Assembly (NCBI GenBank): GCA_937138625.1
Contig: CAKZPF010000004.1
Span: 186,001-250,000 of the forward strand
From: an uncultured Caulobacteraceae bacterium
Lineage (GTDB): Bacteria > Pseudomonadota > Alphaproteobacteria > Caulobacterales > Caulobacteraceae
Length of the DNA: 64,000 bases
Direction of reading: 5' to 3'
The position numbers and the translations under genes are program-made. Shown in pieces: positions 34,507 through 60,314 of the stretch. The notes beneath the pieces were generated by a model. That model was not told where the DNA came from. It made no database searches and saw only the letters and a program-made list of their open reading frames with translations. Position 1 is the stretch's first letter, and each line of letters opens with the position of its first letter.

Positions 34507-34908
34507 TTAGGCGCGTGGCGGTGTGGTGATCACCTTGTCGTTATCCAGGCGCAGTTCGTAATGACCATCGGCATAAACCGAAAATCTGTCGTTCAGCTGA
34601 CCATCGGAATAGGTTTCGACGTGGGGGTTGGTTAGATCCCCCGCGGCCACCTTCATCGAGATTTTTCCAGATGGCACCTCGATGGCCATGGGGTCAAAGC
34701 CTCGGTGATTATCAATGGTGTTCTGGATCATCTGCTGCCCCAGCAATTGATCTTCGCCATTGGTTTTCCAAAGTTCCAGACTGATTTCGCCATTGGGCAA
34801 GCTGCGTTTGTGCAGCTCGAGGGTGTCAAAGATCCCATCCCCATCCACATCAATGCGATAATTAGGCCCAAAGGTGCGAATGGGGGTGTTATCCATTGTG
34901 GTCAGCAT
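34507..34908 (-). CDS. Hypothetical protein with EF-hand-like DxDGDG loop
   Basis: The 133-residue protein contains IDVDGDGIFDTLE near residue 19-31, the D-x-D-x-D-G-x-x-D spacing of calcium-binding loops of the EF-hand/dockerin kind. The rest alternates strands: EISLELWKTNG, KISMKVAAG, and a C-terminal FSVYADGHYELRLD hairpin. No signal peptide is present. The hairpin and the general layout align by eye with the gene at 35317-35877, suggesting paralogues. AGGACA lies before the ATG, and the gap to the preceding gene is only eight bases. Calcium binding is inferred from the loop alone. Confidence 0.78.
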   Translation of the reverse strand: MLTTMDNTPIRTFGPNYRIDVDGDGIFDTLELHKRSLPNGEISLELWKTNGEDQLLGQQMIQNTIDNHRGFDPMAIEVPSGKISMKVAAGDLTNPHVETYSDGQLNDRFSVYADGHYELRLDNDKVITTPPRA

Positions 34909-34916
34909 GTGTTGTC

Positions 34917-35279
34917 CTAAAAGTCGCCGGGGATGATTTTGCTGCCGTTGGAATTGGGCACGGCCTCGTCCCGGTTTTGCGGCACAATCTTTTCACCCGT
35001 GGGATTGCTGTAAACTGGCTCATAGTCATCGCGACTGTCAGGCACGATTTTTCCACCAGTGTTTTGGCCTGATGAAGAGGTTGTGCTGAACTGATAATCA
35101 CCGCGGCCACCTTCGCCTTCAATATACACCCCATTTTTGGTGGTGTGCACACCGTCGCCGGGGCCTTGGTCGGTCACCGTGGCGCGAGTGGGTTCGTTGA
35201 AAATCGAGTAGTCGGTTTGCGGCTCAACCGCAGTGGAATCGCGATACTGGGGTGCCATACTGGCTGGTGAATATCCCAT
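34917..35279 (-). CDS. Hypothetical protein with G-x-K-I-V-P repeats
   Basis: The 120-residue protein is polar and probably disordered: rich in Gly, Ser, Thr, Asp, Asn and Pro. Its C-terminal third has three repeats of a G-x-KI[VI]P unit (TGGKIVPDSRDD, TGEKIVPQNRDE, NGSKIIPGDF) at 17-19 residue intervals. There is no signal peptide. AAGGAAGGAAA before the ATG is a clear ribosome-binding site. It is an internal member of the minus-strand cluster. The repeat could be a short binding motif, but no partner is known. Confidence 0.75.
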   Translation of the reverse strand: MGYSPASMAPQYRDSTAVEPQTDYSIFNEPTRATVTDQGPGDGVHTTKNGVYIEGEGGRGDYQFSTTSSSGQNTGGKIVPDSRDDYEPVYSNPTGEKIVPQNRDEAVPNSNGSKIIPGDF

Positions 35280-35316
35280 CTTTTATTTCCTTCCTTATCG
35301 TATGAATTGATTATAA

Positions 35317-35877
35317 TTACTGACCGCCACCATCGGGGTCATCGTCATTGGGCCAAATGTCTTCACCCAGAAACAGGGGGTTTCCCGCCGGTTGTGGATC
35401 GGATGTACCGCCCGACTTGGGCTCGGATCCGCCACTACGGTGCCAGACATCTTCACCGCCATGGTTTTGATGCCCCTGCCAATCGTGACGCCAGGTCTCG
35501 GTGGTGTTGCTGGGTGTGGGGGCTGTACGAGTCGGCGTGCGGCCCGTCTGCACATCGCCCAAGGTCACCAGGCTGCCGTCTTTCTCGTCATAAATTTTAT
35601 AGGTCCCATCGTCATAGACATGGACACTGTCAAACGAAGTATTGAAGGCCACAAGCTCGTCCACACGGTTGTTTTCCAGTTTCCGCGTCGGCACCTCGGT
35701 GGTGTACAGCGCATTGTAAACGGGCTTGCCACCCTGGGCCATGTGCACAGAAACCGTGGTGGTCCCGCCCTCTTGCTCCCTCATTACAACAGCCAGGCTG
35801 TTCATATACCATGTGTTGCCGTCATGAGATGCGTCAATTACAATCGGGTCACGCGTTCCGTTCAATGCCAATGTCAT
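35317..35877 (-). CDS. Hypothetical protein with VYxDGxY hairpin and GED[VI]W tail motifs
   Basis: The start is set at the ATG 35877, preceded by GGGAGGG; a TTG at 35883 merely extends the frame. The 186-residue product has a strand-rich N-terminal 110 residues (TLALNGTRDPIVIDA, TTTVSVHMAQGGKPV, SVHVYDDGTYKIYDEKDG). These align by eye with the protein at 34507-34908. The tail is a Thr/Pro/His/Gly linker holding GGEDVWHRSGG and LGEDIWPNDDD, an internal duplication. The terminal PNDDD-Gly-rich end recurs in the neighbour at 35978-36262. There is no signal peptide or membrane segment. Function unknown. Confidence 0.78.
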   Translation of the reverse strand: MTLALNGTRDPIVIDASHDGNTWYMNSLAVVMREQEGGTTTVSVHMAQGGKPVYNALYTTEVPTRKLENNRVDELVAFNTSFDSVHVYDDGTYKIYDEKDGSLVTLGDVQTGRTPTRTAPTPSNTTETWRHDWQGHQNHGGEDVWHRSGGSEPKSGGTSDPQPAGNPLFLGEDIWPNDDDPDGGGQ

Positions 35878-35977
35878 CGCCAAGCCCTCCCAAGCGTTGG
35901 TGTATTTTTGTATTTATTTTTTTGGTGATGCGCGGGGCTGCCGCCCCGCCCACAGGTCAATCGGCCCTGGGTCTTAC

Positions 35978-57270: not shown

Positions 57271-57723
57271 ATGTCGAATGATATTCAAACCGTTGCCAAC
57301 GCTGTTTTGATGATTGCCGATCATATGGATGGCCAAGTGGATTTGGTGATCAGTCCGCATAATATTGATAAGGCCATCAATCAGATCGATCGTTATGACA
57401 ACCCAGGCCGCAATTTCACGGTGCCGGGAGATGGTATACTGACCAGTGAAGGCGTTAGCTTTGCAGCCACCCTGGAAAGCCAGAATCCCGAAACCAATCA
57501 TGGTCTGCGCTTTCAAAAAGAAAATTCCGGCACGTGCGGAAATTATGATCACCCTGCTGACAGCGGCCTGCTGAATTTGTCTGTTGATTTTGAAGGGCAA
57601 AACAGCTGCCTTCAAGTGCCTGAAGCTGAGGTGCGCCAGGCGATTGAAGCCTCACGATATATATTTCGTGATCCAAAGCCCACGCCCCCGCCTGACAAGA
57701 TAACACAGACCACACGCGCCTAA
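57271..57723 (+). CDS. Small unknown protein with EF-hand-like N-terminal module (paralogue 1)
   Basis: The 150-residue protein has no signal peptide. Its N-terminal module has the order helix - DGQVD - helix NIDKAINQIDRYD - GDGILT. It aligns by eye with the protein at 59183-59854 (VINDIDRLDG, GDGILT) and more loosely with that at 58468-59067. The D-x-x-D-G and G-D-G-I-L-T spacing recalls paired calcium-binding loops; this is an inference. The C-terminal half is strand-like with two Cys, and the tail is Pro-rich. CAGGAG precedes the ATG. It is convergent with apt, 12 bases away. Confidence 0.78.
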   Translation: MSNDIQTVANAVLMIADHMDGQVDLVISPHNIDKAINQIDRYDNPGRNFTVPGDGILTSEGVSFAATLESQNPETNHGLRFQKENSGTCGNYDHPADSGLLNLSVDFEGQNSCLQVPEAEVRQAIEASRYIFRDPKPTPPPDKITQTTRA

Positions 57724-57735
57724 ATGAGGGTGGAC

Positions 57736-58296
57736 CTACGCCTTTGGAGGCTTTGGCAAAGGCTCGGTATTGCCTGATGGAAAACTGACCAGACTAAAGG
57801 GCTCGTGGCCTGCTGCGCGCAGGCGCTCGGCCCCACCCAAATCATTCAGATCAATCAGAAACACTGTCGCCACCACCTCGGCTTGGGCTTGTTCTAACAG
57901 TTCCAGCGCGGCCATGGCGGTGCCGCCTGTGGCCACCGTATCATCTACCAGCAACACCTTGGCCCCGGGTTTCAGGGCGGATTTGGCCAATTCCACGGCT
58001 TCCTCGCCAAATTCCTGGGTAAAGCTTTCGCGATAGGTATCGGGTGGCAGCTTGCCGCCTTTACGGATGGGGACAAACCCCTTGCCCAGGCGTTGAGCCA
58101 TGGCGCCCGCCAGAATAAACCCGCGCGCCTCGATGCCCACCACGGCGTCAATCTCTTTGTTGACGAAGGGCTGGCACAGGGCCTCGGTGGCGGCGGCAAA
58201 GGCTTGAGGATCCCGCATCAAGGTGGTGATGTCACGGAAATGCATACCAGGACGTGGAAAATTCGGCACAGTGCGGATCAGGTTTTTTAGTTCCAT
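57736..58296 (-). CDS. apt: Adenine phosphoribosyltransferase
   Basis: Apt salvages adenine to AMP with PRPP. The 186-residue product has IRTVPNFPRPGMHFRDIT, VGIEARGFILAGAMA, FVPIRKGGKLP and the PRPP-binding loop VLLVDDTVATGGTAMAA. The ATG at 58296 has GAGGAA nine bases upstream; the frame open to 58368 is rejected. The promoter region is shared with the divergent gene at 58468. It interrupts the plus-strand series of unknown small genes. Confidence 0.95.
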   Translation of the reverse strand: MELKNLIRTVPNFPRPGMHFRDITTLMRDPQAFAAATEALCQPFVNKEIDAVVGIEARGFILAGAMAQRLGKGFVPIRKGGKLPPDTYRESFTQEFGEEAVELAKSALKPGAKVLLVDDTVATGGTAMAALELLEQAQAEVVATVFLIDLNDLGGAERLRAAGHEPFSLVSFPSGNTEPLPKPPKA

Positions 58297-58381
58297 ATAT
58301 ACATTCCTCGGAGGGCGGTAACGGTGGCCAGTGTTTTCGCATCTCATCATAACCAGGGGAAAAGGCAAAGCCCCTTAAGAC

Positions 58382-58423
58382 TTGACGAAGGGACTTGTAA
58401 CGGATATGACATTATATTATCTA
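58382..58423 (+). promoter_or_regulatory. Overlapping promoters of the 58468 gene
   Basis: Two sigma-70-like readings overlap: TTGACG (58382-58387), 17 bases, TATGAC (58405-58410), and TTGTAA (58395-58400), 17 bases, TATCTA (58418-58423). The region to 58445 is very AT-rich. AAAGGAA precedes the ATG. Confidence 0.55.
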
Positions 58424-58467
58424 AATTTAACAATAAATATAAACATCGCTCTCAAAGGAAACACCCT

Positions 58468-59067
58468 ATGACCACTGCCAATCACGCCCTGAATTGTATG
58501 ACCCACGCCCTGCAAGAACTCGCCGACCTGCGCGATGGCCGCCTGGATGGTCAGTACACCCAAGCCAACTTCAAAGCCGTTGTGGCGGAAGCCGCAGGCG
58601 CAGATGAGCAGCTGAGCACAAATGAGCTGAGCACATATACCTTTGGCCAATTGAAGGCCTCGGGCACACAGGCCGACTATATGGGCCCTAATCAACTGGC
58701 CTCGGCCACCTATGGCCAAAAACCTGACTTCAGTGTCAGTGTCGATGAGCTGACGGCCAACGCCGAGGCCCGGGCCTACACCCCAGACGATGACATTTGG
58801 CCCAGTTTGCCGGCGTCTACGTCTTCGGGTGGCATCCGCGCAATCTCGGGGGATACGGACCCGGCCGGGTCGTCCGCTGACCATCCTGCGTCTGAGTTTG
58901 GGTCAGACAGGGCCACTGGTGGTGGGCGACGCCCAACGGATGAATACAACACCGATGGGGCCTCTTATGATTATGACACCACCGAGCCTGATCTGAGCAC
59001 CCCTCATCCCACAGACCCAGATCAAACTCTGGAGGAGGCTGGGAATTTGAAGGGCGGCGATTACTAA
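58468..59067 (+). CDS. Small unknown protein, acidic with DDDIWP motif (paralogue 2)
   Basis: The 199-residue protein starts at the ATG 58468 with AAAGGAA upstream; the frame open to 58324 is non-conserved. The N-terminal 45 residues (CMTHALQELADLRDGRLDGQYTQANFKAVV) align by eye with the 59183 protein (IRALADLKDGKADGHYTAANFTQVI): nearly identical spacing of DGxxDGxYTxANF. The middle repeats an STYTFGQL/SATYGQ word. The tail is long, acidic and Asp/Ser/Thr/Pro-rich and contains DDDIWPSLP, like GEDIWPNDD in the protein at 35317. No signal peptide. Function unknown. Confidence 0.78.
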   Translation: MTTANHALNCMTHALQELADLRDGRLDGQYTQANFKAVVAEAAGADEQLSTNELSTYTFGQLKASGTQADYMGPNQLASATYGQKPDFSVSVDELTANAEARAYTPDDDIWPSLPASTSSGGIRAISGDTDPAGSSADHPASEFGSDRATGGGRRPTDEYNTDGASYDYDTTEPDLSTPHPTDPDQTLEEAGNLKGGDY

Positions 59068-59124
59068 GTAACGCCTGCATCATTGGCGGTTGGCAGTCAG
59101 CCCACTGATTATATGACAGTTTCT

Positions 59125-59153
59125 TTGACAGCCTGAACACACTGTGCTAACAG
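59125..59153 (+). promoter_or_regulatory. Promoter of the 59183 gene
   Basis: TTGACA at 59125-59130, 17 bases, TAACAG at 59148-59153. The start site would be near 59160, with AGGGGAAA before the ATG at 59183. Confidence 0.65.
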
Positions 59154-59182
59154 CCAACACCGAGTCGAAAAGGGGAAATCTT

Positions 59183-59854
59183 ATGACGCACGGGTTTTTG
59201 AACGCTACCAGCAATTTCACACTGGCCATTCGCGCTTTGGCGGATTTGAAAGACGGCAAGGCTGATGGTCACTACACCGCTGCCAATTTCACCCAAGTCA
59301 TCAATGATATTGATCGCTTGGATGGGGTGAACGCCGCCGACAAAGGCGATGGGATTTTGACCCGCACCTCGTTGCAGCGTTACGTGACTGAGTTTGAAGA
59401 TGATGGGGATGCTGACTATGCGCACACCCTGGGCATCGCCAAGATTCATGCCGATCTTGCCCAAAGCAATGATAAGACTGAGGTCAAAGAAGCCAATGTT
59501 CGCCGCTTAGCTGCACAAATTGAGATGCGCGAGCGAGACTTGGACACGGCCCTCGAGAACTTTGAACCTCTTCCTCAAGACCAAAAGACTGATGACCAAG
59601 AGACTGATGCCTGGCCTGGCCTGATTGATCCGGGCTTTATCGAAATCCTGCCCGACTTTCCTGGCGTTGAGGCCGCCCACCGCGAACCGGATCTGCCGAA
59701 GATCCCTGGACTGGTTATGCCAGAATGGCCCACAGACAACCTGAAACCAGCCCCCCTGCCCCAGATCATCACCTTGCCCCATCTGCCCGAAGGCGCTCCG
59801 GATTGGCAGGACCTTTTGCAAGACCCTAAAACGCAAAGTGCTGTTTTCGAATAA
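59183..59854 (+). CDS. Small unknown protein with EF-hand-like module and ETDAWPG motif (paralogue 3)
   Basis: The 223-residue protein starts at the ATG 59183 with AGGGGAAA upstream. The N-terminal 65 residues carry LADLKDGKADGHYTAANF and IDRLDGVNAADKGDGILT, the best-preserved copy of the module shared with the 57271 and 58468 proteins. A helical, charged middle (KTEVKEANVRRLAAQIEMRE) follows. The C-terminal third is Pro-rich and contains QETDAWPGLIDPGF, the D-x-W-P type motif. No signal or membrane segment. Calcium binding is suggested only by the spacing of acidic and Gly residues. Confidence 0.78.
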   Translation: MTHGFLNATSNFTLAIRALADLKDGKADGHYTAANFTQVINDIDRLDGVNAADKGDGILTRTSLQRYVTEFEDDGDADYAHTLGIAKIHADLAQSNDKTEVKEANVRRLAAQIEMRERDLDTALENFEPLPQDQKTDDQETDAWPGLIDPGFIEILPDFPGVEAAHREPDLPKIPGLVMPEWPTDNLKPAPLPQIITLPHLPEGAPDWQDLLQDPKTQSAVFE

Positions 59855-60286: not shown

Positions 60287-60314
60287 TTGACAGCCGTAGG
60301 AATATAAATATAGT
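60287..60314 (+). promoter_or_regulatory. Promoter of the 60350 gene
   Basis: TTGACA at 60287-60292, 16 bases, TATAGT at 60309-60314, both close to consensus. The leader contains AAGGGAG just before the ATG at 60350. Confidence 0.7.

Follow-up and report, generated by a model that had tools for sequence, protein, structure and literature searches.

A nine-copy family of small acidic, probably EF-hand-derived proteins in one Caulobacteraceae bacterium

The window analysed here, 64,000 nucleotides of contig CAKZPF010000004.1 from an uncultured Caulobacteraceae bacterium (assembly GCA_937138625.1, positions 186,001 to 250,000), contains three neighbouring genes, W1, W2 and W3, whose proteins begin with a similar, EF-hand-like stretch. 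Do these proteins form one family, is this family related to the calcium-binding EF-hands, and what might it do? We found that the three genes belong to a family that has nine copies in this genome and no convincing member in any other genome that was searched. The family is EF-hand-like and probably EF-hand-derived, and we do not count it among the canonical calcium-binding EF-hand proteins. The explanation that we favour, with about even confidence, is a lineage-restricted, duplicated and mostly calcium-independent EF-hand-derived binding module of approximately 120 residues.

A preliminary description of this DNA had placed three open reading frames (ORFs) with starts at 57271, 58468 and 59183, and all three are indeed present, each with a plausible ribosome site (judged by eye) ahead of its ATG. 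The E values in the following lines are those with which each member is found by the other eight, scaled to a search space of 3000 proteins:

57271..57723, plus strand: W1 (P0001), family member of 150 amino acids; ORF read, leave-one-out E 3.2e-15
58468..59067, plus strand: W2 (P0002), family member of 199 amino acids with a degenerate loop 2; ORF read, leave-one-out E 1.8e-8
59183..59854, plus strand: W3 (P0003), family member of 223 amino acids; ORF read, leave-one-out E 1.1e-17

The motifs that were said to make up a shared head can be found in the proteins. DGQVDL in W1, DGRLDG in W2 and DGKADG in W3 are followed downstream by HNID, ANFK and ANFT, respectively, and W1 and W3 also contain IDRYD...GDGILT and IDRLD...GDGILT. 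The pairwise score of W1 and W3 is 94, reached by none of 2000 shuffles, and that of W2 and W3 is 87, reached by 1 of 2000 shuffles at full length and by 0 of 2000 with the heads. The direct similarity of W1 and W2 is not significant (score 32; reached by 879 of 2000 shuffles at full length and 53 of 2000 with the heads). The three proteins are joined as one family by the profile, since each of them is recovered by the other eight members. The shared head is thus confirmed.

A profile search of the genome (2,023,278 bases in 10 contigs, 98.78% complete) revealed six further members, raising the total to nine:

locus L010, 5045-5410: A1, family member
locus L010, 5439-5834: A2 (P0007), family member
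locus L011, 5135-5554: B1, family member
locus L011, 5576-5995: B2, family member
locus L011, 6026-6388: B3, family member
locus L020, 1303-1665, minus strand: C1, family member

W3 alone as a query already finds other members in its own genome, and a profile of eight heads recovers its eight plus an unseen ninth (P0012; C4:138796-138966, minus strand; E 6.2e-8). In the leave-one-out searches every member was found, with E values from 2.6e-19 (A2) to 2.1e-8 (C1), and a full-length profile retrieved the same nine and none further at E <= 10 in this genome. Finding no further members together with no significant similarity had been named beforehand as the outcome that would speak against the idea, and it did not occur, six more members having been found. 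All nine proteins are acidic, with isoelectric points (pI) of 4.1 to 5.0, and seven of them have only 120-150 amino acids. In a tree, A1, A2, W2 and W3 are weakly set apart from W1, B1, B2, B3 and C1, and none of the forks attains the mark for strong support; according to this split, physical neighbours are not always closest relatives.

Three further ORFs were considered as members and rejected: P0004 and P0005, downstream in the window (-2.3 and -0.2 bits against the family profile), and P0011, a canonical-looking EF-hand ORF beside cluster B (B1 to B3), which would have been the tenth (E 1.8, 6.5 bits, no significant relation). P0011 is an observation in its own right: it encodes 89 amino acids (L011, 9033-9302, minus strand; G000 C3, about 256032-256301), carries the textbook EF loop DLDGNGFTTPAE and has no Pfam match at E <= 1.

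Outside this genome, the family profile matched 0 of 389 other genomes of the same taxonomic family at E <= 1e-3, and W3 as a query found nothing in 59 other relatives at E <= 0.01. Wider samples of the order, class and phylum overlap, and in some of their genomes the scoring covered no more than a part of the candidates from the first look. With a model that held P0011 as one canonical EF-hand row, 8 of 397 other genomes of the order and 3 of 384 others of the class gave matches at E <= 0.01, none above 23.5 bits; of the 397 other genomes sampled from the phylum, one matched (20.6 bits), with a protein that reads as a histidine kinase. Eleven of the 12 outside places from the order and class samples were inspected: four encode EF-hand proteins (L027, L029, L031, L036) and seven are not recognisably of this type, among them L034, which by eye reads as a histidine kinase. 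Since P0011 was a row of the alignment, the matches in these two samples lean towards EF-hands, and the match of P0011 itself to this alignment arises by construction. W3 had no relative in the named genome collection, where the search requires an exact short peptide pattern first, and no match in the phage collection; A2 had none in the plasmid collection. No second genome of the same genus is present among the 60 relatives, so that "lineage-restricted" here means narrower than the taxonomic family. Convincing members have so far been seen in one bacterium only. We found no publication treating the nine-member family, but as it has no name to search by, this is a poor guide to whether one exists.

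Is the family related to EF-hands? Alignment of its profile with eight EF pairs (hhalign) placed both loops in register with an E value of 2.7e-4, and none of 200 column shuffles scored as high; the pairs were taken, independently of the family, from five of the eight loci of a Pfam EF-hand search (three loci gave none), and all have a spacing of 24. When the head profile was compared with all PDB sequences, five of the six matches listed were EF-hand proteins, none of them significant (E 0.31-1.3). The four EF-hand proteins among the 11 inspected outside matches are likewise aligned in register.

The predicted fold points in the same direction. An AlphaFold2 model of A1, calculated with the nine-row alignment, has a mean predicted local distance difference test score (pLDDT) of 85.7 and a predicted template modelling score (pTM) of 0.80; it replaced a useless single-sequence prediction of A2 (pLDDT 41.0). 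The fold was modelled with aligned rows for A1 alone, and the helix claimed for the heads is thus predicted for A1 and not for W1 to W3. The model contains helices at residues 4-20, 30-44, 53-68 and 81-105 and strands at 50-52 and 109-111. In EF-hands, loop position 10 is where the exit helix begins, and positions 7-9 form a strand. With the loops placed at A1 residues 21-32 and 44-55, the exit helix starts at position 10 in both and the strand of loop 2 lies at 7-9. The model thus has the helix-loop-helix arrangement, but loop 1 has no strand, and it has, from its strand list, the short two-stranded sheet expected of paired loops. Because these are the only two strands of at least three residues, the loop-2 strand must in this model pair with a motif near the C-terminus and not with loop 1. 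We infer that loop 2 pairs with a C-terminal half-loop, and the domain unit would comprise about 120 residues, since the strand partner sits in this motif. The EF-like fold is a computed one and not a proven one. In the window, the parts of the three proteins are located as follows:

57328..57363, plus strand: W1 loop 1, DGQVDLVISPHN, EF-like; register set by the outside-hit alignment, the A1 model and the EF-pair profile alignment
57397..57453, plus strand: W1 loop 2, D-(insert)-GDGILTSEG, EF-like, exceeding loop 2 of A1 and B1 by 7 residues; alignment
57616..57651, plus strand: W1 C-terminal motif, VPEAEVRQAIEA, putative half-loop partner of loop 2; weak motif test, pairing suggested by the A1 model
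58534..58569, plus strand: W2 loop 1, DGRLDGQYTQAN, EF-like; alignment
58735..58770, plus strand: W2 C-terminal motif, VSVDELTANAEA; weak motif test
59252..59287, plus strand: W3 loop 1, DGKADGHYTAAN, EF-like; alignment
59321..59371, plus strand: W3 loop 2, D-(insert)-GDGILTRTS, EF-like, exceeding loop 2 of A1 and B1 by 5 residues; alignment
59483..59518, plus strand: W3 C-terminal motif, VKEANVRRLAAQ; weak motif test

The C-terminal motif is of the type [VIL]-x-E-x-x-[VIL]-R and weakly conserved across the members. In the motif search, for which the tails of W2 and W3 were trimmed to their first 70 residues, shuffled sets did as well in 2 of 60 cases at width 12, in 3 of 60 at width 16 and in 1 of 60 at width 22; the run at width 16 picks other stretches in several proteins, and the A1 copy falls on strand 109-111 in the run at width 22 only. 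Profiles of the tails were not significant for the nine members (leave-one-out E 1.2 to 730), and 2 of 36 tail pairs stood out (A1-A2, reached by 1 of 500 shuffles; W1-W3, by 6 of 500). Since the motif recurs, slightly above chance, and its strand is the partner of loop 2 in the A1 model, the tails are probably not wholly unrelated, and the earlier claim that the C-terminal parts have diverged completely was not confirmed.

Whether the proteins still bind calcium depends on the ligands that are left. Position 1 of loop 1 is Asp in all nine members, position 3 is Lys or Arg in six of nine and an acid (Asp) in one, and position 12 is Glu in one and Asn in five. Both loop-1 acids, at positions 3 and 12, are in B3, where a one-residue insertion in the alignment makes the positions uncertain. 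Loop 2 is readable in eight members, W2 being the exception: D/N-G at positions 5-6 is present in all eight, D/N-G-x-[ILV] (positions 5, 6 and 8) in eight of the nine members, and E/D at position 12 in two of the eight readable loops (B2 and C1). Compared with A1 and B1, five members have a loop 2 that is longer by 5-7 residues, inserted before position 5. The canonical set of EF-hand ligands, acid or amide at positions 1, 3 and 5 and Glu or Asp at position 12, is not present. The calcium ligands are thus largely lost across the family. Calcium binding is therefore doubtful for loop 1 and may be possible for loop 2, with B2 and C1 as the best candidates among the loop-2 sites.

A different reading would keep the proteins as working calcium sensors or buffers, in which loop 2, aided by its insert, binds calcium and the protein changes shape, as in bacterial calmodulin-like proteins. 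The widely kept loop-2 motif, the position-12 acid of B2 and C1, the acidity of all nine proteins and the presence of other EF-hand genes in the genome (six EF-hand_7 matches at E <= 0.01) would fit this reading. However, the acids at positions 3 and 12 of loop 1 are each confined to B3, loop 2 is lengthened in five members, and its position-12 acid is gone in six of the eight readable loops. We consider working sensors possible but doubtful.

It might also be that the family is not related to EF-hands, and that a new four-helix domain acquired its EF-like DG turns by convergence. The following results weigh against the EF-hand-derived module, and several of them would suit such an origin. The hhalign probability is only 41.7%, and the restriction of the EF pairs to a spacing of 24 and to five loci weakens this alignment. 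None of the nine members has a match to a Pfam EF-hand family at E <= 1 (in these scans the HMMER filters drop most matches above about 0.1), and none is among the six EF-hand_7 places. The full-length profile lists three DNA ligase entries of the PDB before one calmodulin-like protein, none significant, and once the profile no longer contains the canonical EF-hand row, L034 (22.5 bits) and L026 (22.3 bits), the best outside matches, are not EF-hands and stand above the EF-hand proteins (11.6-20.1 bits). With Foldseek, the A1 model matched no solved structure at E <= 0.001; in a structural second look other helical proteins came first (Z up to 6.6), followed by EF-hand entries at Z 4.2-4.9, and EF-hand-containing entries made up 6 of the 50 structural matches listed, two of them engineered sensors. 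Residues 71-80 of the model have a mean pLDDT of only 58, and the C-terminal motif exceeds chance by a small margin only. On the other hand, convergence would have to explain why two loops and their spacing are in register with separately chosen EF pairs, why the strand and helix starts of the A1 model lie at EF positions and why EF-hands prevail among the PDB sequence matches of the head profile. We regard an unrelated domain as unlikely, and the EF-hand likeness of the head, as proposed in the preliminary description, is supported by the EF-pair alignment and the A1 model despite the lack of a Pfam EF-hand match.

Least probable, and in our view improbable, is a shared targeting, assembly or secretion head with different cargo tails, such as exported effectors; the preliminary description had proposed the targeting or assembly form, which is not supported. 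Such a head would suit the long unlike tails of W2 and W3 and a lineage-confined family with scattered copies, but seven of the nine members leave little room for cargo, the A1 fold reaches the C-terminal motif, no cargo domain was recognised with Pfam, PHROGs, NCBIfam or PADLOC (weak matches only) and the N-termini have, by eye, no hydrophobic signal. The cargo idea could fit W2 and W3 only; these alone among the nine have long extra tails beyond the motif, an acidic one of about 98 residues in W2 and a Pro/acid-rich one of about 110 residues in W3.

Further database matches were weak. We judged as chance the Pfam matches to DegQ for W1 (E 0.29), DUF6474 for W3 (E 0.1) and DUF6329 for A1 (E 0.047), the NCBIfam matches for W3, A2 and B1 (E 0.04-0.088) and two PADLOC models for W3 (E 0.0031; 15.1 and 14.4 bits). 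No dockerin family matched any member at E <= 1 in the Pfam scans, the PHROGs gave no match at E <= 0.1, the viral structure library gave none at E <= 0.001, and neither parvalbumin nor dockerin is among the fold matches listed.

For the favoured EF-hand-derived binding module we propose the following course. Small acidic proteins would have multiplied by duplication within one alphaproteobacterial lineage. Loop 1 would be a pseudo-loop, and loop 2 would keep the EF strand and pair with the C-terminal half-loop, resulting in a layout with an odd number of loops that is somewhat parvalbumin-like. The Lys or Arg at a calcium-ligand site of loop 1 may stand in for the ion. Binding to helices in partner proteins is common among EF-hand domains, and the family members may act as calcium-independent or weakly calcium-tuned adaptors or regulators that bind helices or peptides, the copies having diverged towards separate partners. 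An adaptor role appears likeliest because the metal sites are worn down and the scaffold is kept. Origin by duplication, loss of calcium binding and an adaptor role is what we infer for the family as a whole. A more specific version, which we put forward only tentatively, is that an EF-hand was made into a metal-free block: Lys/Arg at position 3 of loop 1 would replace calcium, the pair would have been re-formed from loop 2 and the C-terminal half-loop, and at least nine copies in gaps among housekeeping genes would serve as private adaptors. If the favoured explanation is right, a calcium-switch domain lost its ion and was duplicated into a one-lineage family in a comparatively small genome, and this would provide a small, testable system for the origin of orphan families and for the stability of metal-free EF-hands.

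The clusters are set among housekeeping genes. W1 sits between ychF and apt; W2 and W3 are flanked by apt on one side and on the other by two small ORFs preceding the cytochrome bc1 genes. The best named relatives of YchF come from Donghicola (73%), an alphaproteobacterium (72%) and a Caulobacterales metagenome-assembled genome (71%), which by itself would safely place the DNA only among the alphaproteobacteria. Cluster A (A1 and A2) is located between a DUF1428 gene (Pfam) and tig-clpP-clpX, cluster B between pdhA and ftsB, antisense in that gap, and C1 between a peptidase gene and a 153-amino-acid ORF adjoining ligA; the neighbouring housekeeping genes were named mostly by reading translations. 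The ftsB-pdhA gap measures 1432 base pairs (bp) here and 100-251 bp in all 18 relatives in which it could be measured (20 were searched; in one the locus was cut off by the end of a contig, and another yielded no locus). The members follow each other at operon-like distances in clusters A (A1-A2, 28 bp) and B (B1-B2, 21 bp; B2-B3, 30 bp), and W2 and W3 are 115 bp apart. The claim that each gene stands behind its own promoter was not borne out: a consensus scan gave six sites against 3.0 expected (standard deviation 1.5), and on the plus strand a single weak promoter-like site (9/12) precedes W2 and no site precedes W1 or W3, while members elsewhere are only 21-30 bp apart.

The small ORF P0005, for which the genome contains no paralogue at E <= 1, is immediately preceded by a promoter-like site with 11 of 12 consensus bases (window 60287-60314). 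Close to cluster A, a 450-amino-acid orphan (L010, 1477-2829) has the EF-type loop DKNKDGLYGSLE and the His/Cys motifs EMHG and TGCNLG, which we take as recalling a candidate caspase-like peptidase; its only Pfam matches are two weak, unrelated ones (E 0.075 and 0.11). Between ftsB and eno, a 135-amino-acid ORF (L011, 6803-7210, minus strand) has no Pfam match at E <= 1, and several small ORFs in a row (window 34507-35883, minus strand) carry Asp-Gly-rich motifs, VDGDGIFDTLE among them, and are possibly another orphan cluster. The genome, with 2.02 megabases (Mb), is smaller than all 35 other genomes of the taxonomic family listed among the relatives (2.5-5.6 Mb); the 389-genome listing has one of 1.9 Mb, which is 71% complete.

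How does the family compare with known systems? EF-hand proteins of the same order (L067-L070 and L073) likewise have two loops about 23-24 residues apart with one joining helix, in register with those of the family. Their ligands are canonical, and by eye they carry signal peptides at the N-terminus; the nine members differ in having degenerate ligands, in five cases a lengthened loop 2, and no such N-terminus. The CaBP of Caulobacter vibrioides is described as a periplasmic protein with a Sec signal, two motifs with canonical residues and a calcium-dependent gel shift (PMC13171946); it differs from the nine members in these features, by description and not by sequence comparison. Parvalbumin and oncomodulin have an odd number of EF units with one inactive loop, and parvalbumin is small, acidic and mostly cytosolic (PMC9138604, PMC7825312). 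It is absent from the sequence and fold matches listed for the family (PDB profile, Foldseek, structural second look), and it has two units with active calcium sites, whereas the paired loops of the nine members are degenerate, so that the likeness is an analogy only. Calsymin (CasA) of Rhizobium etli, a calmodulin-like protein with three domains with predicted EF-hand motifs and a role in symbiosis (PMC10574481), is, like our family, of EF-hand type and alphaproteobacterial; compared by description only, the members differ in being single-domain. The same review covers "EF-hand-like" motifs with altered loops (PMC10574481), and EfhP of Pseudomonas aeruginosa is another bacterial EF-hand protein (PMC4053335). 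Bacterial EF-hand proteins are already well known, and the nine-member family is probably new as a family that is built on a familiar fold.

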